A stretch of 64,000 bases of DNA, from assembly GCF_030732845.1 (NCBI RefSeq), contig NZ_JASHKA010000005.1, forward strand, positions 1 to 64,000. The letters run 5' to 3'. Positions within the stretch are counted from its first letter, which is position 1, and every line of letters starts with the position of its first letter. Position numbers and translations under genes: made by a program. This DNA is from Roseibium sp. MMSF_3544. GTDB lineage: Bacteria > Pseudomonadota > Alphaproteobacteria > Rhizobiales > Stappiaceae. This document shows positions 9,472-61,779 of this stretch, one piece after another. The notes under the pieces are model-generated. The model searched no databases. It was not told where the DNA came from and saw only the letters and a program-made list of their open reading frames with translations.

Positions 9472-9496
9472 GGCATCGGCCTTTCAAATTTGAGAC

Positions 9497-21113: not shown

Positions 21114-21704
21114 ATGGGATCTCGTATCCGCTTCACAAAGGCAAAACAGGTTTTTGAAACCTATCCGGAGCTTTCGGAAAAAGTAGCGCTTCCCACTGCT
21201 GACCCGACGCCCCAGGAGTATGCGCAGTCGTTGCTCCAGGGGACGGAGCCGACATCGTCCCTGACGTTTTTCGCGCATGCGCTGCCGAAGAGGGAAGCCG
21301 TCTGGTGGGGCACAAAATGCGTGACCGGTCTTGACGACAAAAGGAGCGCAGAGGACGAGGCGGTGCTCGAACTGGTGGAAAACTGGGTCCGCGAGGGCGA
21401 TGAAGAGGCGCGTGTCGCCGTTCACAACGCGGTAGAAGATATGAACGGCAACAGTCCGTCGCTGTGGATCGGCCGCGCTGCGAGCTGGTCGGGCGGCTCG
21501 CTTTCTCCCAATCCCGATTATCGTGTGGACATGCCACCACATCTGACGGCCGTCGGCGTAAATGTCGCCATGCAGGTTGCGATAGGATCGCTCGGTCCAA
21601 AAGCCCGCACAGATGCGCTTGAAACCTGCATATCTGCAGGACTGTCCTTCGCAGAAGGCGGTGTCATGCCCGTCGTGCATGTTAAAGGTCAAGACGTCAC
21701 TTGA
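21114..21704 (+). CDS. unknown T6SS-locus protein (possibly DUF6931-like)
   Basis: A 196-residue protein with no signal peptide or membrane helix, so it is probably cytosolic. Visible features are an Ala-rich helical start, a central segment with two adjacent tryptophans (REAVWWGTKCVTG) followed by acidic helices, and a Gly-rich part (SWSGGSLSPNP). From memory this layout resembles proteins labelled DUF6931 in T6SS-related clusters; I cannot verify that. ATG 21114 follows GGAG by eight bases. Its place between vgrG and tagH suggests an accessory role, for example as a VgrG adaptor or chaperone, but nothing in the sequence proves it. Confidence 0.6.
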   Translation: MGSRIRFTKAKQVFETYPELSEKVALPTADPTPQEYAQSLLQGTEPTSSLTFFAHALPKREAVWWGTKCVTGLDDKRSAEDEAVLELVENWVREGDEEARVAVHNAVEDMNGNSPSLWIGRAASWSGGSLSPNPDYRVDMPPHLTAVGVNVAMQVAIGSLGPKARTDALETCISAGLSFAEGGVMPVVHVKGQDVT

Positions 21705-21726
21705 ATCGGCCGGGAGAACGGTGGGA

Positions 21727-23577: not shown

Positions 23578-24912
23578 ATGTCGTGGTATAGCAAGGTTGC
23601 ATGGACCGAGGGCCTGTTTTTAAGGCCGCATCATCTACAGCAAAGCGACCGCTATGCGGAGCATTTGCTGGATGAACGTGTCAGGCTTGCCTCGCCTTAT
23701 CCCTGGGGTTTTTCGGAAATCGAGATTGACCAGGATGTCGGCCAGCAGTGCCGATTTGCGCTGCGTTATGGCCGGGGGATCTTTCCGGACGGTACGGTGT
23801 TCAATTTCCCTGCGGACGGCACGCCACCTCCGGCAATCGATGTTCCTGAGGACGCTGCCGGCCAGATCGTCTGGCTGGGTATTCCGGAAACGACCGTGAA
23901 CGCGGTGGAGGTGTCCAACGGCAGGGAAGATGCGGCAACGCGTTACATGCAGGGCCGTGAGACGATCATCGATTCGACTTCCGCCATTCGGCAGGAAGAG
24001 GAAATCGACGTCGCTCATCCGCGTCTGGTTTATTCCATTCGCTCGACGCCTCATCCAGGTCATGTCTGCCTGCCGGTTGCCCGGATCACCGAGATCAAGG
24101 ACCGCATTGTCATAACGGATGGAACGTTTGCACCACCTGTTCTTGCGTGTCATGTCCATCCGGTCGTCACAGGCTGGATCGATTCCGTCATCGGCTGGGT
24201 CGAACGCAAGCTCAGCGAACTGGCGCGATATGCTGCCGATACGTCTGCCGGAGGCGGTTTGCAGAATTTCGATTATCTGACGCTGCAGATGCTCAACCGG
24301 CTTCATCCCCAGCTCATGCATTTGAGAAAATCGGCCTACGTGCATCCGGAGCGGCTCTATTCTGAGTTCCTTATGCTGGCCGGTGAACTGGCAACCTTTG
24401 CCACTGAGGAGCGCCGTGCGCGGAATTATCCGGTTTATGATCACGATAAGCTGCACGACATCTTCAAGCCGGTTCTCGCAGACATTCAGGCGTTTCTGTC
24501 CGCCGGCTACGACCGCAGGGCGATCCGGCTGCCGCTGGAACAGCTTGCGCCGAACGCTTTCAAGTCGACCATTGTCGACCGCAATCTGTTCTCTCAGGCG
24601 AGCTTTGTCATCGAAGTCGCCGCACGCCGCCCATTGACGGAAATCCAGAACGAGTTTCCGCGACTGTTCAAGGTCGGGCCGTTCGGCCAGATGCGGCAGA
24701 TCGTCTATTCAAACTTGCCGGGCATTCCACTGATCCATATGCCCGTGCCGCCCGCGCAGATCCGCGCTCTCACGGACCGGGTCTATTTCCGGCTCGACAA
24801 GACCACGCCGCTTTGGCGCGAGTTCAGTCAGGATTCGGCAATCGGACTGCAGTTTTCAGGCAACTGGCCGGACTTGCAGCTTGAATTCTATGCAATTCGG
24901 GAGGGCCGGTAA
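23578..24912 (+). CDS. tssK: T6SS baseplate-membrane connector TssK
   Basis: TssK (ImpJ/VasE) forms trimers that link the baseplate to TssL and TssM. The 444 residues are normal length. The family N-terminus is clear (VAWTEGLFLRPHHLQQSDRY), as are the shoulder segment with GRGIFPDGTVF and the C-terminal GNWPDLQLEFYAIREGR. The stop TAA shares its last A with the tssL start (TAATG), so the two are coupled. Confidence 0.96.
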   Translation: MSWYSKVAWTEGLFLRPHHLQQSDRYAEHLLDERVRLASPYPWGFSEIEIDQDVGQQCRFALRYGRGIFPDGTVFNFPADGTPPPAIDVPEDAAGQIVWLGIPETTVNAVEVSNGREDAATRYMQGRETIIDSTSAIRQEEEIDVAHPRLVYSIRSTPHPGHVCLPVARITEIKDRIVITDGTFAPPVLACHVHPVVTGWIDSVIGWVERKLSELARYAADTSAGGGLQNFDYLTLQMLNRLHPQLMHLRKSAYVHPERLYSEFLMLAGELATFATEERRARNYPVYDHDKLHDIFKPVLADIQAFLSAGYDRRAIRLPLEQLAPNAFKSTIVDRNLFSQASFVIEVAARRPLTEIQNEFPRLFKVGPFGQMRQIVYSNLPGIPLIHMPVPPAQIRALTDRVYFRLDKTTPLWREFSQDSAIGLQFSGNWPDLQLEFYAIREGR

Positions 24913-26525
24913 TGTCCGACAGCGACGATCCCTTTGGCGTTTCCAAACGCAAGGGAAAAACGATTGTCCGGCCCAATCCCGGTGGCCGTTGGAGCGAAAC
25001 ACCTCCGGCGAACGCACCGCAACAGCCCTCTGCGCCGCCGCCACCTGCTTCGCCGCCTGGACAGGCAGCACCGCCGCCGCCACCGCCGTCTTCTCAGCCG
25101 CCGGGAGCACCGGACCCTTGGCAGGGTGGTCGCGGAACCGGACCAGATCCTTATGCACCGACACCGGCTGGCTATGAGTATGGTCAGCAAAAGGCGCCGG
25201 ACATCAGAACGCCACCACCGGCGCAGCCGACACCGCCACCTCCGCAGCAACCTGCTGCCGCATCGCCGCCTCCCGGACACCAGCCTGCAGGCCAGTTGGC
25301 ACAGACGCCGGACATAAATCAGATACGGGTCGCCAATCGCAATCCGATTTCGCGCGCCGCCGCTCCCTTGCTTCTCCTGTTGGGTCGTCTGCATCTGACA
25401 ATGACCGACGCCCAGTTCGATGCCTTGATGCGCGACGTCTACAACGCAATCAAGACGTTTGAAAAGGAGCTGCGCAACGCGGGCATCACCGACGACCAGA
25501 TCCAGTCGGCTGCCTACGCGCTTTGCGCGACGTCGGACGATATCGTCCAGAACCTGCCTTCGGCGGGCCGGCATCAGTGGACGCAATATTCCATGCTGAC
25601 CCAGTTCTTCGGGCAGGCGACCGGTGGTGTCGAGTTCTTCCAGGTTCTGGAAAAGGCCAAGCAGGACCCGGGGCGCAATTACGGCGTTCTTGAAGTCATG
25701 CACTCCTGTTTGTCGCTCGGGTTTTACGGCAAATACCGGGCAATCCAGGGAGGACAGCAAGGGCTCGAACGCGAACGCCGGGACCTGCATGAAATTCTGA
25801 GACGTGTGCGGCCCCGTCCGGGCGACGATCTGTCTCCGCACTGGCGCGGACTGGAACTTCTGCAAAAGCGGACCCGGTTCTCGGTACCGATCTGGTCTGT
25901 CGCAGCAGTCGCCGGTGCCTTGCTGCTCGGTGGGTATGTCACCTTGATGCTGCTGCTATCCAGCGGAAGTGAAGTGTTGGCGAGCCGGGCTGTGGCACTC
26001 TACCCGACAGGACCGATTGAACTTGCCCGTGAGGGCTATCAGCCGAAGCCGCCGCCGCCATTGGCTCCACCTGCAGATGCGACGATCGATACGGTGTCCG
26101 CGCAGCTTGCCGGTATCGACGGATTGGAAATCTCCCAGGCCGGACCGGCGATCATGCTCAGGATGCGTGCACAATTCGATGTCGCCGCAGCGACGTTGCG
26201 TCCGGAATTCCAGCTGCTGGTTGAACAGGTCAGTCAGACCCTGGACAATGTCGACGGCGAAATTCTTGTGGTCGGCCACACGGACAGTGACCCGATCCGC
26301 AACAATCCGCGCTTCCCGACCAATTGGCATCTGTCTGTAGAGCGCGCGAAGAGCGTCGCAGGGGTGATGCAATCCATCCTGCAGACACCGGACAGGGTCC
26401 AGGTGGAAGGCCGCGGCGCAGACGAGCCCATCGCTCCCAATACCAGCCGCGACGGCAAGGCGCTCAACCGCCGGGTGGAGGTGTTCCTGAAGCCTCCCAC
26501 CAAGGGTTTGGTGATCAATAACTAA
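24912..26525 (+). CDS. tssL: T6SS membrane protein TssL with C-terminal OmpA domain
   Basis: TssL (DotU/ImpK) anchors the T6SS membrane complex. This 537-residue version has a Pro-rich cytosolic N-terminus (1-135) and a DotU domain (about 150-310, including SAAYALCATSDDIVQNLP and FFQVLEKAKQDP). One transmembrane helix lies at about 325-347. The periplasmic OmpA-like peptidoglycan-binding domain is at about 410-530 (VVGHTDSDPIRNNPRFPTNW and ALNRRVEVFL). Such fused TssL proteins are known as evolved TssL and supply the cell-wall anchor. The Pro-rich part resembles the linker of TagH in composition only. Confidence 0.96.
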   Translation: MSDSDDPFGVSKRKGKTIVRPNPGGRWSETPPANAPQQPSAPPPPASPPGQAAPPPPPPSSQPPGAPDPWQGGRGTGPDPYAPTPAGYEYGQQKAPDIRTPPPAQPTPPPPQQPAAASPPPGHQPAGQLAQTPDINQIRVANRNPISRAAAPLLLLLGRLHLTMTDAQFDALMRDVYNAIKTFEKELRNAGITDDQIQSAAYALCATSDDIVQNLPSAGRHQWTQYSMLTQFFGQATGGVEFFQVLEKAKQDPGRNYGVLEVMHSCLSLGFYGKYRAIQGGQQGLERERRDLHEILRRVRPRPGDDLSPHWRGLELLQKRTRFSVPIWSVAAVAGALLLGGYVTLMLLLSSGSEVLASRAVALYPTGPIELAREGYQPKPPPPLAPPADATIDTVSAQLAGIDGLEISQAGPAIMLRMRAQFDVAAATLRPEFQLLVEQVSQTLDNVDGEILVVGHTDSDPIRNNPRFPTNWHLSVERAKSVAGVMQSILQTPDRVQVEGRGADEPIAPNTSRDGKALNRRVEVFLKPPTKGLVINN

Positions 26526-26561: not shown

Positions 26562-29500
26562 ATGAAATTCTGGCTCGGAATAACTGCAATTGTGATCGGC
26601 ATTATTGCCCTTATCGCCCTTATCTGGTTCGGCGGGCCGTTTCTTGCCATCGCGGGTGTGCGTCCGTTCGAACCGCTCTGGGTGAGATTGCTTCTGGCGT
26701 TTCTCATTCTGGCGACCATTGGTGGCTGGACGGCTTACAGGATCTACAAGCGCATTGCGGCCAATCGGGCACTGGAACAAGAAATCCTTCAGCCCAAGGC
26801 CAGTGAGGAAGATCTTCAGATCATGTCGGAGCGCATGAAAGATGCGCTGAAGACACTCAAGACTGCCAGCGGCAATACGCGGACCTATCTCTACGATTTG
26901 CCTTGGTATCTGATGATCGGTCCTCCCGGCTCCGGGAAAACCACGGCGCTGATGCATTCCGGTCTGAAATTCGCCAATTCCAGAGGCAAGGGTGAAGCCC
27001 AGAAGCTCGAAGGCCTTGGCGGCACGCGCTACTGCGACTGGTGGTTTGCGGAAAACGCGGTTCTGATCGATACCGCGGGCCGGTATACGACGCAGGATTC
27101 CGACGAGGAACACGACAGCGAATCCTGGCTCGGTTTCCTAAAGATCCTGCGCAAGGCCAGACCGCGCCAACCTGTCAACGGCGTGATGGTTTCCATCAGT
27201 CTAGAAGACCTGATGACGCTTTCCGATGCGGAGTTGAAGCTCCATACGGACGCGATCCGGGCTCGGCTGATTGAACTCTACAAAACGCTGAAGATCGACT
27301 TTCCGGTCTATGTGATTTTCACCAAGGCCGACACGATTGCGGGCTTCATGGAGTTCTTCGGCTCCTATCCGGAGAGCCGGCGCAATCTCGTCTGGGGCGC
27401 GACCTTCCAGACGCGCGAAAAAAACAAGAACATGGTCGCCGAAACGCCGGCGGAGTTCGATCTGCTGATCGAGCGTCTCAATGAGGAAATGGCCGACAGA
27501 CTTCAGGAAGAACCCGACCCAAGGGCACGCCTGATGCTCTACGGTTTCCCGACGCAGGTGGCCGCACTCAAGGATCGCATTACCGGTTTTCTGAACGCCA
27601 TTTTCGAACCCAGCCGCTATTACCCGAACGCGGTGCTCAGAGGGTTCTATTTCACCTCCGGTACGCAAACCGGTACGGCGATCGACCGCGTCATCGGGTC
27701 AATGAAACAGGCGTTCGGCACGGCCTATCAGGCTGCAGCGCTTTCGGGTCAAGGCAAGAGCTATTTTCTGCGTGATCTGCTCACCAAGGTGATCATTGGG
27801 GAAGCCGGTTGGGTCAGTCACAATCGCCAGGCCGTGCGCATGGCAACCGCGGCACGTATTGCGGCTTATTCGGCCATTGTTTTGCTCACGCTTGGGCTCG
27901 GCAGCTTATGGGCGGTCAGCTATTTCAACAACCGCGCGCTGATCGATGAAACCGCCAAGGCCATGGCTGCCGTGCGGGCCGAAGGCGAGGGGGTGCTGGA
28001 GCAAAGGGTCGTGCGCGACGATGCCTTGCGCGATTCAGCCTACATCCTGTCGCTTCTGCGCGCGCTTCCGGCCGGCTATGACAGCCGAAACGATCCGACG
28101 CCGCTTATGGAAAAATTCGGCCTGAGCCAACGCGAACGGCTGGAAGCGGCCGGTATCACGTCCTACCGCAGCGGGCTGGAACGGCTCTTGCGGCCGCGTC
28201 TTCTGCTTCGGATCGAAGAGCAGATGACCGACGTCCTGGATAACCGGACAGGACCGGGCGGCCAGGATATCGATACTCTCTACAATCTGATCAAGCTCTA
28301 TCGCATGGTTGCCGGCGACGCGCCGGAAATCGACAAGGACCAGATCAAGAATTCCTTCCGCGCCGACTTCCTGCAAAGTTTCCCGGGACGCCAGGGAGAA
28401 GTGCTCCGCAACGAGCTGAATGCCCATATTGCCGCGATGCTGGATCTTGATTTCGGTGGCAACGTGCTAACGGACCAGCTTGACGGCGTGCTTGTAGCCG
28501 AGGTCCAGCGGGAACTGGCCAGGGTCAGCCTCGCGGAACGCGGCTACGCCTTGCTGAAATCGAGGTCGAAGGGCCTGACCAGCGAAGACTGGATCGCCGA
28601 ACAACGCGGCGGTCCGGACATGGAAACCGTGTTCGAGACGGAAAACGGCGATACGCTCGATACTGTCGTTGTCGACCGGTTTTACACCTATCCCGGCTTC
28701 CATTTGTCGGTCCTGCCAAATCTGGCAGGCATTCGCGAAGAACTCGAACGTGACAAATGGGTCTTTGGCGACATCAGCGAGGCCGATGCGTTTTCCGACC
28801 AGTACCAGTCGCTTCCCTCTGAAATCCTTGCGCTTTACACCAAGGATTACATAGCGGCCTGGGAAGGCGCGCTCAGCAACTTGAAATTCAAGTCGATGCG
28901 CAATGACAAGCCGCTCTACACGACGCTGCAGGCAGTCTCCGCGCCGACGTCGCCCGTGGTCCAGTTGCTGGAAAGCATCCGCAATGAAACCCTTTTGACG
29001 CAAGACCTCTCCGAGCAAGGCATCGCCGGTTCTCTTGGTGGCGGAAATGCCGGGGAGGCGGGAACGGAAGCCGCGCAGAAAATTTTCCAGTACTACGTTC
29101 TGGACAGGTCAGGAGGACTGAAGCGTATCGGTCTTGAAGCCGGTATCAAGGCGCTCGCGCCGGGCGGTGTGTCGAGTGCACTCGATGCCGCGACCGGCGG
29201 TGACGGCCCGGCCATCATTCCGGGCAAGGCAGTTGAGGACCATTTCCGTCCCTATCACGTGCTTGTCGAGGGGGAGAACAGCCGTAAGATCGACGCACTG
29301 CTACTCAACTTCAAGAACATCCTCGACAATCTGCTGGTCGTTGCCAACAACCCGGTCCAGAGCGAGACCGCCAATTCCAATGTGCAGATCCAGGCATCAC
29401 TTCTCAGAAGCAACGCCACGCGTTTCCCGCAACCGTTCGACAAGCTGATCCTGCAGTCGGCCAAGGAATTTGATGAGGAGTACAAGGAAACCTCGATCAC

Positions 29501-30215
29501 GCAGCTCAACGAAAAACTGAAGTCCCAGGTAGTTGAAGAGTGCCGCCGGATCGTCGCGCGCAACTATCCGTTCACGAACGGGCGGTCGGAAGTGCCGATG
29601 ACGGAGTTCGCCAAGCTCTTCTCGCCGAACGGCATCATGCAACAGTTTTTCGATCAGAACCTGAAAGCGCTCGTCGACACATCTTCTCGGCCCTGGAACT
29701 GGAAACCCGAAGTCACGCAGGCCGACCGTCTGTCCAACGCGACGTTGCGCCAATTCGAGCGTGCGGATCTCATCAAGCAGGCGTTCTTCCCGACCGGCAA
29801 CGCGTTTCCTTCTATCGGTCTGCAGGTCGTGCCAAGGGCTTTGTCCCAGCAGGCCGACGCAGCAAGCCTTGAAGTCAACGGCAATCTGGTTCTGGTCACG
29901 CGCGGCCCCGGCTTCAATGCAGACATTGAACCGCTGCCTGCAAGCTTCGATTGGCCGAGCAATACTGCCACACCGCGTGTCGTATTGGTCATTCAGCCGG
30001 AAGTTCCGGGCTACCGTTCCCGCCAGGAGGTGCATGGTGATTGGGCGTTTTACCGGTTCGTTCGCGCCAACAGGGTCAGCTCGGGCCAGAACAAATTTGT
30101 TATTCGGAAAACGCTCGGCGGAAGACAGGTTGCCTTCACGGTGACACTCCGCACAAAACCGAACCCGTTCTTCCTGTCCGCCGTCGGCGACTTTACGTGC
30201 CCGACGAGTTTCTGA
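26562..30215 (+). CDS. tssM: T6SS inner-membrane protein TssM (IcmF)
   Basis: TssM (IcmF/VasK) is the large trans-envelope strut of the T6SS membrane complex. It has 1217 residues. Two N-terminal transmembrane helices (about 5-28 and 40-60) flank a short periplasmic loop. A cytosolic domain with an intact Walker A (GPPGSGKT, 120-127) and WWFAENAVLIDTAGRY follows, so it may hydrolyse nucleotide. A third helix lies at about 433-452. The rest is the periplasmic TssM domain, ending in a beta-rich C-terminus that in other systems contacts TssJ. No TssJ gene is recognisable in the window. It lies between tssL and tagF, with ten bases to tagF. Confidence 0.97.
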   Translation: MKFWLGITAIVIGIIALIALIWFGGPFLAIAGVRPFEPLWVRLLLAFLILATIGGWTAYRIYKRIAANRALEQEILQPKASEEDLQIMSERMKDALKTLKTASGNTRTYLYDLPWYLMIGPPGSGKTTALMHSGLKFANSRGKGEAQKLEGLGGTRYCDWWFAENAVLIDTAGRYTTQDSDEEHDSESWLGFLKILRKARPRQPVNGVMVSISLEDLMTLSDAELKLHTDAIRARLIELYKTLKIDFPVYVIFTKADTIAGFMEFFGSYPESRRNLVWGATFQTREKNKNMVAETPAEFDLLIERLNEEMADRLQEEPDPRARLMLYGFPTQVAALKDRITGFLNAIFEPSRYYPNAVLRGFYFTSGTQTGTAIDRVIGSMKQAFGTAYQAAALSGQGKSYFLRDLLTKVIIGEAGWVSHNRQAVRMATAARIAAYSAIVLLTLGLGSLWAVSYFNNRALIDETAKAMAAVRAEGEGVLEQRVVRDDALRDSAYILSLLRALPAGYDSRNDPTPLMEKFGLSQRERLEAAGITSYRSGLERLLRPRLLLRIEEQMTDVLDNRTGPGGQDIDTLYNLIKLYRMVAGDAPEIDKDQIKNSFRADFLQSFPGRQGEVLRNELNAHIAAMLDLDFGGNVLTDQLDGVLVAEVQRELARVSLAERGYALLKSRSKGLTSEDWIAEQRGGPDMETVFETENGDTLDTVVVDRFYTYPGFHLSVLPNLAGIREELERDKWVFGDISEADAFSDQYQSLPSEILALYTKDYIAAWEGALSNLKFKSMRNDKPLYTTLQAVSAPTSPVVQLLESIRNETLLTQDLSEQGIAGSLGGGNAGEAGTEAAQKIFQYYVLDRSGGLKRIGLEAGIKALAPGGVSSALDAATGGDGPAIIPGKAVEDHFRPYHVLVEGENSRKIDALLLNFKNILDNLLVVANNPVQSETANSNVQIQASLLRSNATRFPQPFDKLILQSAKEFDEEYKETSITQLNEKLKSQVVEECRRIVARNYPFTNGRSEVPMTEFAKLFSPNGIMQQFFDQNLKALVDTSSRPWNWKPEVTQADRLSNATLRQFERADLIKQAFFPTGNAFPSIGLQVVPRALSQQADAASLEVNGNLVLVTRGPGFNADIEPLPASFDWPSNTATPRVVLVIQPEVPGYRSRQEVHGDWAFYRFVRANRVSSGQNKFVIRKTLGGRQVAFTVTLRTKPNPFFLSAVGDFTCPTSF

Positions 30216-30225: not shown

Positions 30226-30909
30226 ATGGACATTCAGAACGGATATTTCGGAAAGCTGCCTGACCGGGCCGACTTTGTGATTGGGAGATGTCCGGAGGGC
30301 TTCCTGCGACATTGGGAACCGTTTTTGATGAAGGGACTTGCACAGTCGAGACAAGACTTGGGCAGCGCGTGGGAAGAAACTTATATGACCATGCCTGTCT
30401 GGCGGTTCTGGCTGGTTCCGGAGATCGAAGGCGGGACGATGCGCGACGCGGTTGCCGGCGCTCTCATGCCGAGTGTCGACAAGGTCGGGCGAAAGTTCCC
30501 GCTGACGGTTGCCTCGCCGGCCAGGACGGGAGACGACAACGGCAGACCGGAGGAGGCCTGGTATGACCGGGTCGAGACGGTTCTTCTCGACGTCCTTGAT
30601 GAGGAAAGCAGCCTCCAGGCGTTCCAACAAGCTGTCGCCACACTTGAGGACCCCTCGGCCGTCAGCGCCGATGATCCATCGCTGGCATACAGCACCCTTG
30701 CGGCGGCACCGGAAACTGATGGCAAGATCCAATCGTTTTTCTGGTGCCGGGCGGGCGACCAATTTTTTGGATTTCAGTGTTCCGGATTACCGGACGCGGA
30801 AGCATTTCGCTGGCTGCTCCTCCCTGAAGAGCATGGCGAAGACACGAGCGAAAGTGAAACGGCAGGGCACACGCATGGGCGATATCATCCGGAGGATAAT
30901 CGGACATGA
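30226..30909 (+). CDS. tagF: T6SS-associated regulator TagF
   Basis: TagF proteins repress T6SS assembly after translation; in some species the repressor is fused with PppA. The protein has 227 residues. The start is diagnostic (GYFGKLPDRADFVIGR), as is the following VWRFWLVPEIEGG and ALMPSVDKVGRKFPLTV. Its stop overlaps the pppA start by four bases (ATGA), matching the close functional link of TagF and PppA. Confidence 0.93.
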   Translation: MDIQNGYFGKLPDRADFVIGRCPEGFLRHWEPFLMKGLAQSRQDLGSAWEETYMTMPVWRFWLVPEIEGGTMRDAVAGALMPSVDKVGRKFPLTVASPARTGDDNGRPEEAWYDRVETVLLDVLDEESSLQAFQQAVATLEDPSAVSADDPSLAYSTLAAAPETDGKIQSFFWCRAGDQFFGFQCSGLPDAEAFRWLLLPEEHGEDTSESETAGHTHGRYHPEDNRT

Positions 30910-31670
30910 CACTTTCAGTGCACGAGGATTTGCAAGGATTTTCGTTCGGATTGACCCATGTCGGGCGTGTTCGCGAAGAAAACCAGGATGCCTTTTACTG
31001 CGACGAGAACAAGGGTGTCTTTGCAGTCATGGACGGAGCGGGTGGTCTGAACGGTGGAGCCATTGCCTCCGGGCTCGTGAAAGAAGCTTTGACAACGATC
31101 AGAGTGCCGCAAAATGCAGTGGATCTGCTTGATCAGTTCGAAGGCCGGGTGATCGACGCCAAAGAGCAGATCGAGAAAGCGTCTGCAAAAGCAAACGGTG
31201 CTGCGATGGGAACAACGATCGCCGCGCTTTTAACCTTCGGCTCCAATTTCGCCTGTCTGTGGGCCGGTGACAGCCGGGTCTACCGGTTCCGGGACGGGAA
31301 AATGGAGCAACTGACAACGGATCACACAGAGGCCCAGGAACTGGTCGATCAGAATGTGCTTACGGAAGAAGAAGCCAAGCTGTTTTCAAGGCGCCACGTG
31401 ATCACCCGCGCAATCGGATCCGGCGTTGACCTTGAGCTGGAGCTGGTCTCCGGAAATCTGCGGCTCGGTGATCGCTTTCTTTTGTGCTCGGATGGCTTGA
31501 CGGGGCATCTCGACGATACAGTTATTTCAACATTCATGCTGGACGGTACCAAGAAATCGGTCGCACAGGGTCTGCTGAACGGAGCACTGGACCAGGGGGG
31601 CGCAGACAACGTAACCGTGGTCGTCGTGGATATTGACCGCGTCTCTTATGATGAAGGAGAAGTCCGCTGA
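30906..31670 (+). CDS. pppA: PP2C-type Ser/Thr phosphatase PppA
   Basis: PppA removes phosphate from T6SS targets of PpkA and so switches the machine off. The 254-residue protein is a complete PP2C domain. Metal-binding acidic residues are visible in REENQDAFY, VMDGAGG, LCSDGLTGHL and GGADNVTVVVV. The second motif reads MDGAGG, close to the usual D-G-x-G. The gene overlaps tagF by four bases and ppkA by one base (TGATG), so tagF-pppA-ppkA form one translational unit. Confidence 0.95.
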   Translation: MTLSVHEDLQGFSFGLTHVGRVREENQDAFYCDENKGVFAVMDGAGGLNGGAIASGLVKEALTTIRVPQNAVDLLDQFEGRVIDAKEQIEKASAKANGAAMGTTIAALLTFGSNFACLWAGDSRVYRFRDGKMEQLTTDHTEAQELVDQNVLTEEEAKLFSRRHVITRAIGSGVDLELELVSGNLRLGDRFLLCSDGLTGHLDDTVISTFMLDGTKKSVAQGLLNGALDQGGADNVTVVVVDIDRVSYDEGEVR

Positions 31671-33562
31671 TGAATCCCGACGATCATTTGCTGCCGTCCG
31701 GGTCCAGGCTCAACAATCTTTACGAGATTGAAGAGCATATTGCCGACGGCGGTATCGGGACAGTGTATCGTGCGAGGGACGTTGAGAGCGGCGATCCGGT
31801 TGCCATCAAGGTTCTTCTTGCTCGAATGGCAAAGGATCCTCTGATCCTCGATCTTTTCAAGCGTGAAGCCAAGATCCTTCGAAAACTGAAGCACGATGCG
31901 CTGACGCAATACTTTGTTTTCGCCAAGGAGCCGACGCTCGGTGTCTATTACCTTGCGATGGAATTTGTCGCTGGTCCCTCGCTTAAGTCGCGCCTGGAAG
32001 CTGGGCCACTTGAACCGGAGGCTGTCTACCGGCTGGTCATCAGGCTCGCGTCCGCGCTTCAGGCCGTGCATGATCGGGAGGTCATCCACCGCGACCTGTC
32101 CCCGGACAATATCATTCTCCAGAACGGTGACGTTGGCCAGGCGAAAATCATCGATTTCGGTATATCGCGCGCCAATACGGCCGGACCGACAATCATCGGC
32201 GACGGCTTTGCCGGCAAGGTCAACTATGTCTCGCCGGAACAGGTCGGTCTGTTCGACGGCAAAGTGACGGCGAGAAGCGACATTTATTCGCTGGGGCTCG
32301 TCATCACCGAGGCACTGACCGGCAAACAGCCCGATATGGGGGGCACCCAGGTCGAGATGGTTGAAAAGCGGCGGGCGGTGCCGTCGCTTGAGGGGGTAGA
32401 CAACCGGTTTCGACCGCTTCTTGAAGCCATGCTTCAGCCTGAACCGGCGAACAGGCCTGCCTCCATGGCGGAGATCGCGGAATGGACGCTTGGTGCTCCT
32501 ATGCGCCAGCCGATTGAAGACAAGACAATCATCAGACCTTCGGGACCACCTCCAGAGCAGTCCGTTCTGGACCAACCTAACCAGCCGGCGCAATGGGGAC
32601 GCCGTGTGCTTGTCGCCCTGTCTCTTCTTGGATTTGCAGGAGCAGGTGCGGCGGGGGTCTATTTCCTCGTCGGACAAACGGTCCCCGACCCGAACCAGAA
32701 ACCTGTTTTGATCGCTGAGCCGCGCGAAAACGCGCCGCCGAAGCCGATCGCTCAGATCGACGATGGGGCAGAGGACGACGACGGCGGCGGCTCGACAGCC
32801 CAATCGGGTGGCTCCGGAGAGGGAACGGACGCCACTGGTAACAGCGAGGATTTGACCTCCCAAAAGGGAACCGAGATTGCTTCGCTGCCGCCCAATACCC
32901 TGGATAACGGGCAACAGCAAAATACTCCCCCCTCAACAAACCTGAGGCCGGAAGATCGTATCCGGAACTATGTGAACAACTACCAGGCGGGCGACTGTAT
33001 GTATCTGCAGCCTGTCCAGATCGCCAGCAGGTCCGCCGAAATCGAAGGCTTTGCATCCAGAACGCCGCCATTCATCACTTTCGACAGCGAGTTCACCCAG
33101 ACGCAGGGCTTTGAGGCCAAGATCCAGGTCAATCTTGTGAGCGATGCGCAATGCCCGGCGATTTCCTTTCTGAGGGCGACACCACAAGGCAATGAGCAGA
33201 CTGAACTGCGCCTTGATATGCAAAGAACGGTCATTCCGAACGGGGAAAATATGGCCGGAAGAATCTCCGGCTATGATCCCTCGACCGGTGAATTGGGTCT
33301 GATTTTCGTCACCAGCAACGGAGAAGTCGTCAATCTGTCTCCCTATTTGCAGAGCGATGACGGCGGTGCAGGATTTGTTGTCCCGCTGAACCTGAAAACA
33401 CCGTCCGACGAGACGGGGTTGATTATTTCAATGGTTGGGTCGGACATGGCTGCAAATTTGTCGAAGCGCCGGGAAAAGCAGGCAAATGCCTATTTTGAAG
33501 CCCTGCAGCAGGATCTGCCGGTCTTGCGGGCAACGGCAACGACGGTCAAAGTGGTGCCTTGA
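31670..33562 (+). CDS. ppkA: transmembrane Ser/Thr kinase PpkA with a periplasmic domain shared with the TonB-like protein
   Basis: PpkA phosphorylates T6SS regulators such as Fha. It has 630 residues. The kinase domain is at 17-275 with Gly-rich loop ADGGIGTVY, Lys47 in VAIK, catalytic Asp142 in HRDLSPDN and Asp162 in DFG, so it should be active. A single transmembrane helix lies at about 313-335, then an acidic Gly/Ser-rich linker, then a periplasmic domain (about 428-605). That domain aligns without gaps over about 62 residues with the TonB-like protein two genes downstream, including two cysteines 52 residues apart (Cys443, Cys495). It is therefore probably a sensor module specific to this locus rather than a von Willebrand-type domain as in Pseudomonas PpkA. 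Confidence 0.94.
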   Translation: MNPDDHLLPSGSRLNNLYEIEEHIADGGIGTVYRARDVESGDPVAIKVLLARMAKDPLILDLFKREAKILRKLKHDALTQYFVFAKEPTLGVYYLAMEFVAGPSLKSRLEAGPLEPEAVYRLVIRLASALQAVHDREVIHRDLSPDNIILQNGDVGQAKIIDFGISRANTAGPTIIGDGFAGKVNYVSPEQVGLFDGKVTARSDIYSLGLVITEALTGKQPDMGGTQVEMVEKRRAVPSLEGVDNRFRPLLEAMLQPEPANRPASMAEIAEWTLGAPMRQPIEDKTIIRPSGPPPEQSVLDQPNQPAQWGRRVLVALSLLGFAGAGAAGVYFLVGQTVPDPNQKPVLIAEPRENAPPKPIAQIDDGAEDDDGGGSTAQSGGSGEGTDATGNSEDLTSQKGTEIASLPPNTLDNGQQQNTPPSTNLRPEDRIRNYVNNYQAGDCMYLQPVQIASRSAEIEGFASRTPPFITFDSEFTQTQGFEAKIQVNLVSDAQCPAISFLRATPQGNEQTELRLDMQRTVIPNGENMAGRISGYDPSTGELGLIFVTSNGEVVNLSPYLQSDDGGAGFVVPLNLKTPSDETGLIISMVGSDMAANLSKRREKQANAYFEALQQDLPVLRATATTVKVVP

Positions 33563-33599
33563 CCCGTTTGCTTGACCGGGACCTGACGACGTTGACCTG

Positions 33600-34022
33600 A
33601 TGAAGCGCTATACGAAACCGATCCATGTACCGCAGCCGTTGAAGCATCGCACCGCGGACAGTTCGCTGGCCTTGATCAACGTCGTCTTTTTGCTGCTGCT
33701 GTTCCTGCTCGTGTCGGGCACGCTTCGTCCGCCGCTGCCGGAAGAGTTCGAATGGGCGGAGACGATCTCTGAGGACGGAAGGGGAGACATTCAGAACAGC
33801 CTTGTTCTGTCGCGAACCGGTGCCGTTTGGTTCGATGGCAATGCGCTCGAAGATGAAGACCTCGAAACAACGCTCGCTGACCTCGCTCAAACCCGGGACA
33901 GCTTGTCGGTGCAGGTGGATCGCAGAGCGAAGATGGAAGCCGTTGCGATGCTCGCGAAACAGCTTCAATCGGCAGGTATCAAACAGCTGAGTTTCGTCAC
34001 AATTGAAACGGATCGACCGTGA
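33600..34022 (+). CDS. ExbD-like protein lacking the proton-pathway aspartate
   Basis: A 140-residue ExbD/TolR-type protein: short cytosolic N-terminus, one transmembrane helix (about 22-42) and a periplasmic domain. ExbD/TolR proteins carry one essential Asp in this helix for proton flow. Here the equivalent position is Asn27 (codon AAC at 33678-33680, context LALINVVFLLLLFLLV), whereas the second ExbD of this locus keeps Asp21. The gene lies 37 bases after ppkA and overlaps the TonB-like gene by four bases (GTGA). It probably pairs with the other ExbD or acts as a structural subunit. The family call is firm; an inactive-subunit role is inferred. Confidence 0.82.
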   Translation: MKRYTKPIHVPQPLKHRTADSSLALINVVFLLLLFLLVSGTLRPPLPEEFEWAETISEDGRGDIQNSLVLSRTGAVWFDGNALEDEDLETTLADLAQTRDSLSVQVDRRAKMEAVAMLAKQLQSAGIKQLSFVTIETDRP

Positions 34023-35842
34023 CGACCGCCGTCTACAATCAAACCGGCGAAGCGCGGATACCCGCCTATGTCTGGACGGCGGGGCTGGGCTTGTCGGTCG
34101 GGGCCCACCTTGCGGTGGTCATTTACGGGCTGCCCTATTTGTCGTGGGATACGGAGCAGCTTCCCGAACCGGCTGCGACCGAAATCACCATCGAGAGCAA
34201 TGATCTGAATTTTGAAACCGCGGCGGTCGTGGAGTCGGTCGCTGCAGAAACCGCAACGCCGGATGCTGTCGCGGTTCCACCTTCTGAAGCAGTACCGGTA
34301 CCCGTCGAACCGTTGCCGAGCGTTGAAACGGTACCCGATTCAAGCGATGTCCTGACACCGGCAGAAACCGTCGCGGCAAATCCGGAAACCGTGCTGCCTG
34401 ACCAGGTTGAAACCAGTCAGGTGGAGCCGGGCGCGGCTGTTTTGCCGGAGCGTATCGAAACGAGCGAGGCCCAAGCCGTTCCTCAATCAGCCGCTGAGCC
34501 CCTCACAAGCGCGGCCGCTGAACAGGTTGTTGCAACAGCGCCGGAAACCGCAGCCGTTGCGCCGAGCCAATCAGTGGCCGTCAGCGTCGCTCCGCCTGTA
34601 AGCACTGTTGTCGTCGGTAAAGAGATCGAACCTGCGGCCGTCCAGCAGGTGCCTGAAACCCCCACGGTCGTGACTGCGCAGCCGTCAACCGCGATTGTAC
34701 TACCTTCAACGGTCCCAACCGATGATGAAGGGATCGTGGTCGTGACCGCACCGGCGACGACGGCTCAGCCGACAAACACCACGCAAACCCAGGCAGAAAC
34801 GGCCAATGTGAGCTCGGTAACTCCCGTCCAGTCCGTTGAGCAGGCGTCAAGCCCGGTTGCAGTGGCCCCCGGATCGGTTGTCGCTCCGGTGACTGCCGCA
34901 CCTGCGACCGCCCCGTCCGTTGCCGTTTCCAGCAGTTCTCAGGTCAGTACCGTGACTTCTGTTACGGCGCCGGTGGTCACGTCGAACACGCTGCAGGTCG
35001 AAGCCGGATCAGTGCAGGCGGTTGATCCGGTCGAAGAGCAGATTGCGGCGATACGGCCGTCTGAAATAGGTTTGCCGTCAATCGAGCCGAGCGATCCCGA
35101 TCCGTCGAATGTGCCTGCGGCGCCTGTTACCACCGACCCGGCGTCGAATGTGTCACCAACGGAAATCGCGACAATCGATCCGCTTGCGGACGTTACGGCC
35201 TATGTTTCCAGCTATAACGTTGGCGAATGCGCGCATTTGACTGTCATGTCCGCGGGGACCGACACCGCGCAGGTGACAGCCTTCGGTGCGACCATCGCGC
35301 CGTTTGTTCAGTTTGATCAGAAGTTCAAGGCCGACCAGGGCTACGAGGCTAATATTGAAGTGCGTCTCGTCACGGGACGGCAATGCGCGCTTCTGAATGC
35401 ACTCGGACCCGAAAACGGCGTCGAAGCTGCTGGCCTTGTTGAGCTGGACAACACCGTTGTGAAAAGCGGCACGCGCGTTTCTGGAGTCATCCAGCGAGAT
35501 TTGCCGATCGGTCGCATCGCACAGGCGGAAGCTGCTGGTCTTGAGCTGAACGGGAAGGGACCGCCCGAGCTCTATCTCATTGACGATGCCGGCCAGATCC
35601 ACGACGGCAGGAGTTTCGTGCGCCATGAGACAAGCACTGTGAGGGTTGGAGGGTGGCGATTTGCGGTTCCCGTGACGCTTATCTCTGGAAGTCCATCCGA
35701 GACCGCGCTGATCTTGACGGTCTGGAACCGGCCGAAGAGCAATCAGCCACCGGAGTTCAGAAGCTTGCCGGCGGATCGCATTGCAAGCGTGCTCGCTGAA
35801 CCCGGCGTTTACTCGCTGTCCGCCTTCAAGGTCTCACGTTGA
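34019..35842 (+). CDS. TonB-like envelope-spanning protein with PpkA-type C-terminal domain
   Basis: A 607-residue protein with a cytosolic N-terminus, a transmembrane helix at about 18-41 and a periplasmic stretch of roughly 340 residues rich in Val, Ala, Pro, Thr and Glu. A folded C-terminal domain spans about 388-600. Layout and gene neighbours (ExbD before it, ExbB after it) are those of TonB or TolA, but the C-terminus is not a standard TonB domain. Instead it matches the periplasmic domain of PpkA (23 of 62 identical by eye, Cys404 and Cys456 at the same 52-residue spacing). The start is GTG within the GTGA overlap. It could transmit proton-motive force to, or read, the T6SS envelope complex. 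No function is proven. Confidence 0.75.
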
Positions 35843-36505
35843 CGGCGCCGGACTTGCAGCACCGGCAGTGAAAACGCCGGTCAGCAGAACTTCAAGCGCC
35901 GCACGTTCCTTTTCCAGCCGGGTTTCGAACCAGGTCACCGCGACGGAAACGGGGATAGCGACGGCCAGCCCGCAGGCCGTGGTCAAGAGAGCAACCCAGA
36001 TGCCACCTGCAAGTGTCGCCGGGTTTGCAGAAGATCCGGATTCCTGGAGCGTCTGGAAGGTGTCGATCATCCCGAGCACGGTCCCGAACAGGCCGAGCAA
36101 AGGCGCGATCTGAGTAACAAGGTCGAGGGCCTTGAGCCAGCTTGCCAGGTGAAACAGGCGGTCAGCCGCACGCGCGGAAATCTCCTCGCGCAAACGTTCC
36201 TCGCGAATATCGCGTTCCTGCGCATTCATGGGTTGCTGGTCCAGCATCTGGATCGCATCCATGGCGCCGCGCACGAGAGCGGCTGACAAGGACCTGTCTT
36301 TCAAAAGCGCCTGGGTAGCCTTGGCACGTTCTCCGGTCCGCCACAACGTAACAGCCTGCCTGACAAGAACATGACGCCCGACCCGCGCATTTGAGAACTG
36401 GAAAGCCTTTGCAAGAATGGCGGCAAGCGCAAGAACGGAGATGGCCAGGAGAACCAGAACCACCGGTCCTCCAAGTTCGAGCAGCGAAGAAGACGACTCA
36501 ACCAT
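35834..36505 (-). CDS. exbB: ExbB/TolQ-type proton channel protein
   Basis: A 223-residue MotA/TolQ/ExbB family protein with transmembrane helices at about 10-32, 125-150 and 165-190. The pore-lining signature is present ([20 protein letters not shown] and [17 protein letters not shown]), including the small polar residues that face the ExbD helix. The gene converges on the TonB-like gene and their ends overlap by nine bases on opposite strands. It is therefore not in the same transcript as the first ExbD. Together with two ExbD-like genes it would form one proton-driven motor. Confidence 0.9.
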
Positions 36506-36540: not shown

Positions 36541-36972
36541 TCAGTCTCCGAACTGGATTGCGGTACGGTTCTTCAAATCGAGGAGATCCGGGCAGTAAAC
36601 ATCCGTGACGCTTGCAGGCACACAGTTCAGAACGTCATTGATATGCAGCCTGGAAAGGCTGTCGCAGGCCTTGCCGGCAAGGTCAAACTGCAGGACTTTG
36701 GTCTTTCCGGCCGAAATGCGTGAAAAATCAAGGCGAAGAAACTGATCGACCAGACCGTCGACATTAAAGGCCACGATTTCCAGGCCAAGCTGGTTGATGG
36801 GTCTCTCAAGGCCATTGGTCGCGATTACGGAGAGCCGGCAGCCGCCATCTTGTGTCGGTTGGACATGGTTGAGTTCAAGACTGATCTTGCCGGTCGGATC
36901 CTGTGCCTGCGCCGGCGCCGCCAAAACGGCCAGAACATACCCCAGTAAAATCAGACAAGCCGGTATTCGCAT
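36541..36972 (-). CDS. small secreted protein of unknown function
   Basis: A 143-residue protein with a signal peptide (residues 1-23, ending AQA-QD). ATG 36972 was chosen because it starts the signal peptide and a G-run lies upstream; the frame continues 22 codons further. The mature part is beta-rich and has four cysteines (in GGCRL, GKACDS, LNCVPA and VYCPDL), enough for two disulfides. I do not recognise a domain. It follows the exbB gene on the same strand within 70 bases of the next gene and is likely part of the Ton-like module. Confidence 0.7.
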   Translation of the reverse strand: MRIPACLILLGYVLAVLAAPAQAQDPTGKISLELNHVQPTQDGGCRLSVIATNGLERPINQLGLEIVAFNVDGLVDQFLRLDFSRISAGKTKVLQFDLAGKACDSLSRLHINDVLNCVPASVTDVYCPDLLDLKNRTAIQFGD

Positions 36973-37043
36973 GTAACCCCCCAAAAAACTCCAAGTCGAA
37001 AACCTTGGCTGAAACAGCCTGTTGCGGTCATCAGACACAAATA

Positions 37044-37502
37044 TCAGTCATAAGACAACAGCACTGTCCAGTCTTCTGCACCGTCTGTTTCAATCTTGAA
37101 AAAATCGGCTTCGATCAAGCCCCGTTGCCAGCACTGATCCCCGTCGAACAAGACAAATTTCTCTTCACGTATGCAGAGTGTGATGTCACCCCCGAGGCGG
37201 CTTTCACCAAAACCGTCGGCAACGTGAAGATAATATTTTTCTTGCTTAAGCGGTTCCTGAAGGATCTGACTGCAGGCATTGGCCGTGATTGTCCACCAGC
37301 CCTCCGTGCGCAATCCGTCTTCCGTGTCAAAACCGATCGCAACATTCACCAGATCGACAGATCCATTGCACACTCTGAGGCCTGCCTGCGCCGGCAAAGC
37401 ACCAAGCAAACCCGACAGGAAGACAGAGACCGCAAACGTCAGCCCCACGGGCCATCGATTGCCCGATCGTAAAAGACTTCTGGACGAGAATGTTTGTGCC
37501 AT
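37044..37502 (-). CDS. secreted DUF1036-family protein
   Basis: A 152-residue protein with a signal peptide (hydrophobic core about 21-36, cleavage near AQA-GL). The mature start RVCNGSVDLVNVAIGFDTED and the later EGWWTITANACSQIL match the DUF1036 family, whose function is unknown. Four cysteines are visible in the mature part. It is transcribed leftward toward the four-Cys protein and exbB, forming a three-gene unit opposite the second ExbD gene. Confidence 0.8.
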   Translation of the reverse strand: MAQTFSSRSLLRSGNRWPVGLTFAVSVFLSGLLGALPAQAGLRVCNGSVDLVNVAIGFDTEDGLRTEGWWTITANACSQILQEPLKQEKYYLHVADGFGESRLGGDITLCIREEKFVLFDGDQCWQRGLIEADFFKIETDGAEDWTVLLSYD

Positions 37503-37645: not shown

Positions 37646-38068
37646 ATGCTTTCGATACACAGTCCAATTGGCAAACGACGGCGGATACCGCTGACGCCGC
37701 TGATCGACGTGATTTTCATCCTCGTCATGTTTTTCCTGCTGTCTTCGTCATTCGGGATATGGCGCCCGCTGGATATCAGCTTGGGCGGAGAGGAGGTTGC
37801 GGAACGCACCGAAAGCACGGCTGTTTCCACGCCGCCGGTCCTGATTGTTTTGAAGGTTCTGCCGGCAACAGGGGCCCAAGAGCTGATCGTGAACGGGCTG
37901 ACCATAGAACTTGACGGACTGGCCGGGGAGCTGAACAGGCTTGCCGACGCCGGTGCCCAGACCGCGGTGCTGGTTCCGGACGATGCCACGGACTTTCAGC
38001 AAGTTGTCCGTATTCTCGATGAAGCGAAATCCTCCCGGATCAAAAGCGTCAGCCTGAAGCTGCAATAA
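37646..38068 (+). CDS. exbD: ExbD/TolR-type protein with intact proton-pathway aspartate
   Basis: A 140-residue ExbD family protein with a basic N-terminus (GKRRR), one transmembrane helix (about 18-38) and a periplasmic domain ending VSLKLQ. The essential Asp is present as Asp21 in TPLIDVIFILVMFFLLSS. This contrasts with the other ExbD-like protein at 33600-34022, which has Asn there. It is divergent from the DUF1036 gene across 143 bases. It is the likely working partner of the ExbB-like protein. Confidence 0.9.
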   Translation: MLSIHSPIGKRRRIPLTPLIDVIFILVMFFLLSSSFGIWRPLDISLGGEEVAERTESTAVSTPPVLIVLKVLPATGAQELIVNGLTIELDGLAGELNRLADAGAQTAVLVPDDATDFQQVVRILDEAKSSRIKSVSLKLQ

Positions 38069-38132: not shown

Positions 38133-39704
38133 TCAGCGGCCGATTGCGCCACCGATGATGCCACCGACAACACCGCCGATGAAGGCTGCGCCTGCAGGGT
38201 TCACGCCACCGCCGCGATTGTTGTTCTGCGTGTTCGTGGCGCGCTGTGGCTGTCTGTTGTTGTTGGTCGTGGTCGTCTGCCGCGTTGTTGTGCTCCGCGA
38301 CGCCGAAGCCGCCCGCTGCTTGCGCTTGATTTCAGCGATGTAGGCAGTGTACTGCGCGGCCGTCTGGTTGGTCAGCAGCAACTGCTGTGCCGCGGTGAAG
38401 TATCCGGACGGAACCTGACCGTTAGCCGTCTGCCAGGCAACGATGCCGGCACGTGTCTTCGGACCGAAGGCACCATCAGGACGGCCGACATTGTGTCCCG
38501 TAAGGTTCAGGCGTGTCTGGATTTCCCGCCGTGCAGAGCGGTTCCATCCAAGCGCTGCTTCTGTTTCTGCCGTACCGGGAATTGCGGTCTGCGGGTTCGG
38601 CAGGGTCGCACTCGCACCGGCGGCATTCGCTGCCGGAGCTGCTCCAGGCGTGGTCGCCGGGTTGACTGCGGCCACCTGAGAGCTGGTGCTCAGGCGCTTG
38701 ATCGAGTTGCGCGCAAAGTCAGCGAACGTACCGTTCGGATAGGCCGACAGGTAGGATTCGTAGTCGGCAATCGTGTCGCTTGATTTGGCAGCTTCCCAGA
38801 TCAGCTTTTCACGTTCCCAGTCAAGATTGCGCTGTGCGGTTGCCGGAGCAGGTGCTGCAACAGCCGGCTGCTGCGGAACTTCGGTGGCCGTGTTGCCCAG
38901 GGAGGCGACTTCGGTGCCCTCAGCGGACGCGACGCTCTTGTTCAGGAAGACTTCGCCGATAAGGGAAGCATTCACCCAGGGGCGCTGACGCTTTTCCGTG
39001 GCATCATAGACATCACCGGTAACGCGGGTCATCACGGTCTGGATGGAGGCGTTGGGCGTATCGATGTGGCGGATGAGAGCCGACGTGAACGGGGAATTGC
39101 TGCCTTCGCCGTCGAGCGCAACATCGCCCGGGCTGGTCGCAAACGCTATCACGGAACCTTCACCGCCGGTTTCCTCGACCTTGATCTCGGCAAGACCTGC
39201 GCCGACGTTACCAGACCGGCTGGGGCCCATGCGGCGAGCGAGTGTGCGCGCCAGCGGGTTGTCGCGGCAGGCATCCAGGAACACCATCTGAACCTTCACG
39301 TCCTTGGACATCTGGCGCATGATGAAGTCGACCGAGATCGTTTCGAAATCGAGAGACGTTTCGTCTTCGATCTTGGCGTCGATCGGAACCAGCAGGTTCT
39401 GTCCGGCAACCTGCATGCCGTGGCCGGCATAAAACAGGAGCGCGATTTCCGCACCGTAGGCTTTCTTGGCGAACTCCATCACGGAACGGCGCATGTCGTT
39501 ATAGGTTTGGTCCTGACCCGCGACGACTTCGAAGCCGAGACTCTTCAGCTTTGTAGCCATCTGTTCCGCGTCGTTTGACGGGTTGGGAAGGGGTACTGTG
39601 TGTTCGTAAGCACCGTTGCCGATAACCAGGGCAACGCGCTTTGCAAGTGCCGGGGCTGTTCCCGCAATGAGTATTGCCAGCACGGCGATCATTCGTGTGA
39701 ACAT
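38133..39704 (-). CDS. secreted caspase-like (C14) protease with peptidoglycan-binding-like domain
   Basis: A 523-residue protein with a signal peptide (ending APALA-KR). The caspase fold is at 22-255 with His95 in FYAGHGMQ and Cys146 in LDACRDNP; both catalytic residues are intact. A linker leads to a helical segment (about 295-345) and a PG_binding_1-like domain at about 385-445 (LTGHNVGRPDGAFGPKTRAG). The tail is Arg/Asn/Thr-rich, then a glycine-zipper end (GGVVGGIIGGAIG) that could insert in a membrane. Its caspase domain differs clearly from that of the 62-1684 protein, so the two are not recent duplicates. It ends the T6SS/Ton region. Its substrate is unknown. Confidence 0.92.
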   Translation of the reverse strand: MFTRMIAVLAILIAGTAPALAKRVALVIGNGAYEHTVPLPNPSNDAEQMATKLKSLGFEVVAGQDQTYNDMRRSVMEFAKKAYGAEIALLFYAGHGMQVAGQNLLVPIDAKIEDETSLDFETISVDFIMRQMSKDVKVQMVFLDACRDNPLARTLARRMGPSRSGNVGAGLAEIKVEETGGEGSVIAFATSPGDVALDGEGSNSPFTSALIRHIDTPNASIQTVMTRVTGDVYDATEKRQRPWVNASLIGEVFLNKSVASAEGTEVASLGNTATEVPQQPAVAAPAPATAQRNLDWEREKLIWEAAKSSDTIADYESYLSAYPNGTFADFARNSIKRLSTSSQVAAVNPATTPGAAPAANAAGASATLPNPQTAIPGTAETEAALGWNRSARREIQTRLNLTGHNVGRPDGAFGPKTRAGIVAWQTANGQVPSGYFTAAQQLLLTNQTAAQYTAYIAEIKRKQRAASASRSTTTRQTTTTNNNRQPQRATNTQNNNRGGGVNPAGAAFIGGVVGGIIGGAIGR

Positions 39705-58698: not shown

Positions 58699-58878
58699 TA
58701 TACTACCCACCAGTATTCGATTTTCATTTCGCAGCATAGCTGCCGTAACCATCCAAGAGAAGCATGATGTTGCAGCGTGACATGAGCGTGATAAGGTATT
58801 GTTGTAGTTCAGGTTGTGTGGCATTCGCGGTTGCGTTTCCAAGCTTCTGACAACGTGTGATTCAAATACGGGGAATTG

Positions 58879-61152: not shown

Positions 61153-61183
61153 CAGATAATCCTCGCCTTTGGGAAAACAGTTA

Positions 61184-61210
61184 AGCCCAGCAGACGTGGT
61201 CTGCTGGGCT
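61184..61210 (-). terminator. perfect 12-base hairpin between the two precursor-like genes
   Basis: 61184-61195 pairs perfectly with 61199-61210 around a 3-base loop. On the minus strand it is followed by TAACTGTTTTCCC. It lies eight bases after the stop of the first precursor-like gene and probably acts as a partial terminator, giving more message for the first peptide than the second. Confidence 0.75.
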
Positions 61211-61217
61211 GCAACTT

Positions 61218-61508: not shown

Positions 61509-61625
61509 AGTGAGCCTCCTGAAGTTAAAGTTGCTTTTTGACTTAGCAGGTGGGTGGATGGTCACGTCGCTAAGTCGAAATAAGTCAAACTTTAGTAAAA
61601 ATTAATTAGATAACTATTTTTACTG

Positions 61626-61655: not shown

Positions 61656-61723
61656 ACGAAGAAAAAATATTGCTCAATAGAGGGAAAGTCTTTTTGCAAT
61701 CAATGCAATTGTAAGGCGAGGGC

Positions 61724-61754: not shown

Positions 61755-61779
61755 TCCGAAGAGCAGAAAGGAAGCGGTC

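Follow-up and report, generated by a model that had tools for sequence, protein, structure and literature searches.

A periplasmic domain common to the kinase PpkA and a TonB-like rod: a candidate proton-driven input for alphaproteobacterial type VI secretion systems

What tells the kinase PpkA of a type VI secretion system (T6SS) to act in bacteria without TagQRST? In Agrobacterium, PpkA phosphorylates TssL and thereby activates the T6SS; parts of PMC3953482 state that TagQRST is absent from this bacterium, that the stimulus of TssL phosphorylation is unknown and that the trigger of PpkA in bacteria lacking TagQRST is an open question. A T6SS locus of Roseibium sp. MMSF_3544 (Rhizobiales) offers a concrete and conserved candidate for such an input. 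The stretch analysed here, referred to as the window, comprises positions 1 to 64,000 of contig NZ_JASHKA010000005.1 (assembly GCF_030732845.1) and encodes PpkA and, close by, a TonB-like protein, the rod, which ends in the same periplasmic domain as the kinase. The rod is part of a set of genes that includes ExbB- and ExbD-like proteins, the Exb module. As a tentative reading, which we hold to fall a little short of probable, we propose that this module is a proton-driven, TonB-like input for PpkA in those T6SSs in which no TssJ can be recognised, the set to which the candidate input would apply.

The domain shared by PpkA and the rod

PpkA (31670..33562, + strand) is a Ser/Thr kinase of 630 amino acids (Pfam Pkinase, 6.3e-39), which consists of a kinase domain (residues 18-265), one transmembrane helix at about residues 312-331 according to hydropathy, and a periplasmic C-terminal domain (residues 424-630; 32939..33559, + strand). 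The rod (34019..35842, + strand; 607 amino acids, GTG start) has an N-terminal helix with the motif S26-x-x-x-H30, a linker rich in Ala, Pro, Val, Thr and Ser, and a C-terminal domain (residues 385-607; 35171..35839, + strand). An earlier note, made by eye from the sequence, had claimed that a gapless block of 62 residues with equally spaced cysteines connects the two proteins, and realignment bore this out: PpkA residues 434-495 align with rod residues 395-456 at 23 of 62 identical positions, and the cysteines, Cys443 and Cys495 in PpkA and Cys404 and Cys456 in the rod, are the sole cysteines of both proteins. The region is real, but its extent was underestimated, since the note had seen the N-terminal third of a common unit of about 190 residues that reaches towards both C-termini (PpkA ~424-630; rod ~385-607). 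Alignment of PpkA with the rod yielded an E value of 2e-16 across 200 columns with BLASTP and of 1.4e-17 with phmmer, and the local alignment score of 169 compares with 31.4 +/- 5.1 (maximum 54) for 1000 shuffles. The profile comparison that the note had proposed gave a strong match, with an hhalign probability of 99.7% over 174 columns between a profile of 35 rods and one of 36 kinases. BLASTP, shuffles and profile-profile alignment thus rule out a chance or compositional match.

With the rod as query, these two copies of the domain were the only ones found in the 6.9-Mb genome. No Pfam or NCBIfam model matches the shared domain or the rod, and a PDB sequence search returned no relative of the domain, matches to aldehyde dehydrogenase at an E value of 0.15 being taken as noise. 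Both cysteines are invariant in the copies compared (79/79 on rods and 74/74 on kinases); because these copies are placed in the periplasm, a periplasmic disulfide bond between the two residues is suggested. The mean pairwise identity is similar for the two copies, namely 0.335 for the kinase and 0.374 for the rod (49 loci).

The copies are also alike in predicted structure, as the note had expected. AlphaFold2 models of the PpkA copy (predicted local distance difference test score, pLDDT, 89.8; predicted template modelling score, pTM, 0.86) and of the rod copy (pLDDT 89.5, pTM 0.87) display the same order of elements, an alpha-beta-beta-alpha-beta-alpha half followed by a beta-sandwich half. 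Structure comparison tentatively places the C-terminal sandwich among immunoglobulin (Ig)-like folds, and the placement is clearer in the kinase copy than in the rod copy; Ig-like matches filled the comparison lists, which gave no fold assignment for the N-terminal half. Two known heads were considered: a TonB_C head for the rod was rejected, with a profile-profile probability of only 0.1-1.3% versus the TonB_C domains of relatives, and a BON head for the N-terminal half appears unlikely from profile comparison, with an hhalign probability of 0.1-0.2% versus 91.5% for the positive control BON/BON.

The Exb module and its T6SS neighbourhood

Proton channels composed of ExbB and ExbD lie in the inner membrane and power rods of the TonB type. 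The rod layout postulated earlier agrees with the partners encoded around it and with its first helix, which carries the S-x-x-x-H transmembrane signature of E. coli TonB. In 87 rods, the His is kept in 84 and the Ser at position -4 in 67; the three rods without His are L073, which is cut by a contig end, and L094 and L173, for which the stretch picked falls in the linker. We infer from this signature that the rod is probably energised by the Exb motor. TonB_C (PF03544) was not detected by hmmscan in the window's rod or in five rods of other loci, whereas the positive control, locus L154, gave a TonB match of 5.5e-15. The linker between helix and head has a median length of 220 residues in rods (111-610, n=86), which can be enough to cross the periplasm, and of 52 residues in kinases (25-389, n=78).

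Three motor proteins accompany the rod in the window, an ExbB/TolQ-type proton channel subunit (35834..36505, - strand; Pfam MotA_ExbB, 8.5e-28) and two ExbDs. ExbD-D (37646..38068, + strand; Pfam ExbD, 1.5e-16) passes the Pfam cut-off and has the usual transmembrane Asp (Asp21, codon 37706-37708), which is replaced in ExbD-N (33600..34022, + strand; Pfam ExbD, 5.9e-12) by Asn27 (codon 33678-33680); ExbD-N passes the cut-off despite this exchange. Seven residues before Asn27, ExbD-N has an Asp (residue 20) that is kept in 6/6 aligned rows and may be a displaced protonation site. The module also includes hyp165 (36541..37038, - strand), a small protein without family match whose N-terminus looks secreted by eye, and a DUF1036 protein (37044..37502, - strand; Pfam, 2.4e-29). 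DUF1036 is also found beside several kinase-only loci.

A scan of genomes of named species, for which an alignment of the Asn-type ExbD was the only query, yielded 411 stretches with 156 relatives, 80 of which were kept. The gene order DUF1036 / hyp165 / ExbB / ExbD-D / ExbD-N / rod, often beside PpkA / PppA / TagF / TssM / TssL, recurs in named Rhodobacterales and Rhizobiales. The arrangement described in the earlier note is thus present in the T6SS locus, but is not peculiar to it. Across the 80 loci, ExbB is present in 77, hyp165 in 70, DUF1036 in 61, PppA in 51 and a T6SS core gene in 61; the shared domain sits on the rod in 75, and all visible kinases (49/49) carry it. A rod domain is not visible in L095, L102 and L119, which reach contig ends, and in L154 and L168, which have other rods; in L095, the domain found is a contig-end piece of the kinase and was hence not counted as a rod. 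By pattern, an Asp-type ExbD precedes an Asn-type ExbD in 76/80 loci, and the four unscored loci are L097 and L127 (Asn motif missed by the pattern), L151 (contig start) and L168 (both present on inspection). As this set was chosen by the Asn, the residue carries no evidential weight there; the check is provided by rod loci fetched through the domain, some of whose genomes overlap with the 80-locus set and in which the Asn is present in 34/34 (five read by eye, since the pattern missed them) and the Asp in 33/33 where the gene lies inside the stretch. An Asp/Asn ExbD pair as a hallmark of T6SS was also considered and is ruled out by loci L154 and L168, discussed below.

Upstream of ppkA, the window encodes the phosphatase PppA (30906..31670, + strand; Pfam PP2C_2, 8.5e-12), TagF (30226..30909, + strand; TagF_N, 7.2e-40), TssM (26562..30215, + strand; IcmF-related_N, 6.6e-87, and IcmF-related, 2.4e-66), TssL with a C-terminal OmpA-type domain (24912..26525, + strand; DotU, 2e-57, and OmpA, 7.7e-12) and Fha (21613..23499, + strand; FHA domain and T6SS_FHA_C). 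Altogether, the T6SS core genes found in the window are VipA, VipB, ImpA_N, TssF, TssG, gp25, VgrG, TssK, TssL, TssM, Fha and a ClpV-type ATPase. The kinase lies in a T6SS locus, as the note had it, and combines a Ser/Thr kinase domain and a single transmembrane helix with PppA, TagF and Fha as neighbours, as is characteristic of a T6SS PpkA.

A protein with a caspase domain (Peptidase_C14) and PG_binding_1 (38133..39704, - strand) adjoins the module in Roseibium loci; it occurs in 10/80 module loci and, within the window's order, accompanies several further T6SS loci. PADLOC, run on eight proteins, matched the kinase and the caspase only and thus does not point to a defence system. A BTAD-domain regulator and a YcaO protein are encoded further downstream, beyond the T6SS region, at 58876-63168.

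Distribution and history of the two copies

Among the PpkA kinases of alphaproteobacterial T6SSs, one class carries the shared domain at the C-terminus. The domain was found in 25/249 sampled genomes of the window's order; in a sample of the class, 5/385 genomes matched at an E value of 0.001, three of them weakly and chance-like, the strong matches being the window's genome and G312. Counts from this first-look domain filter are lower bounds, for instance the rod of G610 was missed by the filter and found later in its neighbourhood. T6SS core genes are present in 21 of the 27 stretches fetched around domain matches (L057-L083); of the other six, L061 and L064 lack T6SS core genes in 19.5 kb, and the contigs of L060, L068, L074 and L078 measure 3-8 kb. 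In the stretches searched, no protein type other than kinases and rods was found to carry the domain, and weak matches in L084-L086 look like chance. The expectation that the domain is not widespread outside T6SS loci thus held in these samples. In L061, the domain-bearing kinase is encoded at 9484-11952; another kinase of this kind lies next to T6SS genes in the same genome, G499. In one Roseibium genome, the PpkA frame is interrupted, so that kinase and domain are encoded as separate pieces (L090, 7132-9200).

How often both proteins carry the domain, a question raised in the earlier note, depends on the order. Among 292 sampled Rhodobacterales genomes, the domain is present in 36, exactly two copies are found in 34/36, and 34/35 genomes with a rod copy hold both; many genomes of the window's order have the kinase copy only. 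The two Rhodobacterales exceptions are G825 with a kinase copy only and G957 with a rod copy only, the latter on an 11-kb contig. A rod copy is accompanied by a kinase copy in 10/10 members of the window's genus in the family sample; in the window's order, G498 (83% complete) has a rod only. The rod is thus almost always accompanied by a kinase copy, and the converse is not true. The copies can be far apart, as in the Rhodobacterales genomes G790, G691, G695 and G828, and the split pairs that were fetched (G768, G790, G861, G756 and G901; apart or on different contigs) comprise one module and one kinase each. Named plasmid records hold a kinase copy in Mesorhizobium ciceri and a rod, annotated as hypothetical protein, in Paracoccus.

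The association with T6SS is strong in Rhodobacterales: TssC is present in 79/292 genomes versus 35/36 with the domain (Fisher p = 4e-22). A recognisable TssJ was found in 16/292 genomes and in 0/36 with the domain; among TssC-positive genomes, the numbers are 0/35 with and 16/44 without the domain (p = 2.6e-5). The genome lists for TssC, TssJ and the domain were matched by eye, and the Fisher tests used those counts. The window's T6SS lacks a recognisable TssJ as well, since the genome's sole PF12790 match at an E value of 0.001 lies on contig C33 in a second T6SS, although a very divergent TssJ is possible. This second system (contig C33, 396000-430000) includes TssJ, PppA and two kinases that lack the shared domain, and the 34 kb fetched around it contain no Exb module; it is a natural control for the association of module and domain.

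A tree was calculated from 106 domain copies after a cut at 62% identity, with the near-copies L090-L094, L150, L095 and L107 left out and four contig-end kinase pieces set apart. In this tree, 47/51 rods form one clade (support 99), and the other four, those of the window, two other Roseibium and P0080, group with Roseibium PpkA (support 92 in the Shimodaira-Hasegawa-like approximate likelihood ratio test, SH-aLRT). Roseibium may thus have acquired its rod domain a second time or had an earlier one replaced, but the approximately unbiased (AU) test does not reject a tree that unites all rods in one clade (p = 0.154). The 52 loci used to compare divergence have a single copy each on kinase and rod and contain every control gene. 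In these loci, distances between kinase copies correlate with those between rod copies at 0.82, and at 0.45 after controlling for TssM and PppA; with the same control, the catalytic domain of the kinase and the rod domain correlate at 0.10. Without Roseibium (45 loci), the correlation between kinase and rod copies is 0.65, and 0.31 with the same control.

Candidate roles of the module

How could the module act on PpkA? ExbB, the Asp-type ExbD and the Asn-type ExbD would form a proton channel that acts on the N-terminal helix of the rod, the long linker would carry the tip domain through the periplasm, and PpkA would display the sister copy of this domain outside the inner membrane. Both copies may bind one common envelope partner or each other. 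The energised state of the rod, that is its reach, its load or the proton-motive force, could then raise or lower the activity of PpkA, which in turn would alter the phosphorylation of TssL and Fha and the firing of the T6SS. Of this picture, the identity of the domain, the architecture, the gene set, the TonB and ExbD signatures, the co-occurrence and the separation from TssJ are results of the analysis; energisation, contact or a common ligand, and control of firing are proposals. In a more specific version, a class of TssJ-less alphaproteobacterial T6SSs would be gated by the proton-motive force: the Asp/Asn ExbD motor would move a rod whose head engages the paralogous sensor head of PpkA, and a rotary motor would thereby supply the missing upstream signal. 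We regard this version as doubtful. Models exist in which two ExbDs take turns within one ExbB ring, and the conserved Asp/Asn pair is a natural test of such models.

Several observations speak against the module as input for PpkA. No rod is seen in 20/24 genomes of the window's order with a kinase copy, hence PpkA does not need the rod. As the linker is short in the kinase and long in the rod, both domains may lie at different heights in the periplasm. Co-divergence of the kinase copy is also seen with ExbB (partial correlation 0.35), so the correlation between kinase and rod is not specific to this pair; since related species are not independent, shared ancestry is only partly removed, and the co-divergence of the two copies is no more than suggestive. 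A recognisable TssJ is also absent from 28/44 TssC-positive genomes without the domain, and its absence is thus not specific to the module. Other rods are encoded with an Asp/Asn ExbD pair and ExbB, a TonB_C rod in an Alcanivorax metagenome-assembled genome (L154, 2112-3633) and a different rod in L168 (9950-11666), and the pair is therefore no hallmark of T6SS. Finally, a T6SS core gene is not seen in 19/80 module loci, six of which are full 20-kb stretches.

Three other explanations have to be weighed against an input for PpkA. The module might be a structural anchor that belongs to the trans-envelope complex and does not serve as input to a sensor: in a T6SS without TssJ, the energised tip of the rod would help TssM and TssL to cross or grip peptidoglycan and the outer membrane, and PpkA would read the docking via its own copy. 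The separation from TssJ in TssC-positive Rhodobacterales, rod linkers that can span the periplasm and the OmpA-type domain of the window's TssL are consistent with such an anchor, which we nevertheless consider unlikely, as the kinase copy so often occurs without a rod in the window's order and the absence of TssJ extends to most TssC-positive genomes without the domain. The domain could also be a shared address only, a generic head that binds the envelope, for example glycan or peptidoglycan, and places both proteins together, with the Exb/TonB-like motor energising another step without crosstalk to PpkA. The fold of the C-terminal half, apparently Ig-like, is a common binding fold, the module is sometimes located away from T6SS genes (L232), and related Asp/Asn motors bear other heads; a generic head is, however, at odds with the restriction of the domain to kinases and rods in the stretches searched and with the rarity of rod copies without kinase copies in Rhodobacterales and, in the family sample, in the window's genus. 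On balance, such an address appears quite improbable.

That the domain was duplicated incidentally within the locus and kept by linkage without joint function is very hard to reconcile with the data. Local copying would produce the grouping seen in the window's genus, where the rod domain falls with that of the local PpkA; yet the principal clade of rods is old, the two copies are retained even where they are unlinked, and both cysteines are invariant in every copy compared. We retain, as a tentative reading, the Exb module as an input for PpkA.

The module can be compared with several known systems. In Pseudomonas aeruginosa, as described in parts of PMC3953482, the PpkA-PppA-Fha pathway likewise comprises a membrane Ser/Thr kinase and a phosphatase beside T6SS genes with an upstream membrane input; the input proposed here is the Exb/TonB-like module, in contrast to TagQRST there, for which no search was made here. 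The PpkA-TssL-Fha pathway of Agrobacterium tumefaciens also belongs to an alphaproteobacterial T6SS with PpkA and a TssL with a peptidoglycan-binding domain, but the relevant passages of PMC3953482 mention no Exb module. With TonB-ExbB-ExbD, the module has in common ExbB, ExbD, an N-terminal S-x-x-x-H helix, a long linker and a C-terminal periplasmic head; it differs in that this head is the PpkA domain and not TonB_C, in having two ExbDs, of which one has Asn in place of Asp, and in its link to T6SS. In TolQ-TolR-TolA and other two-ExbD systems, an inner-membrane proton motor pulls a periplasmic rod. Compared to TolQ-TolR-TolA, the module has a different head and no Pal/TolB setting, yet it too would be an inner-membrane proton motor with a periplasmic rod.

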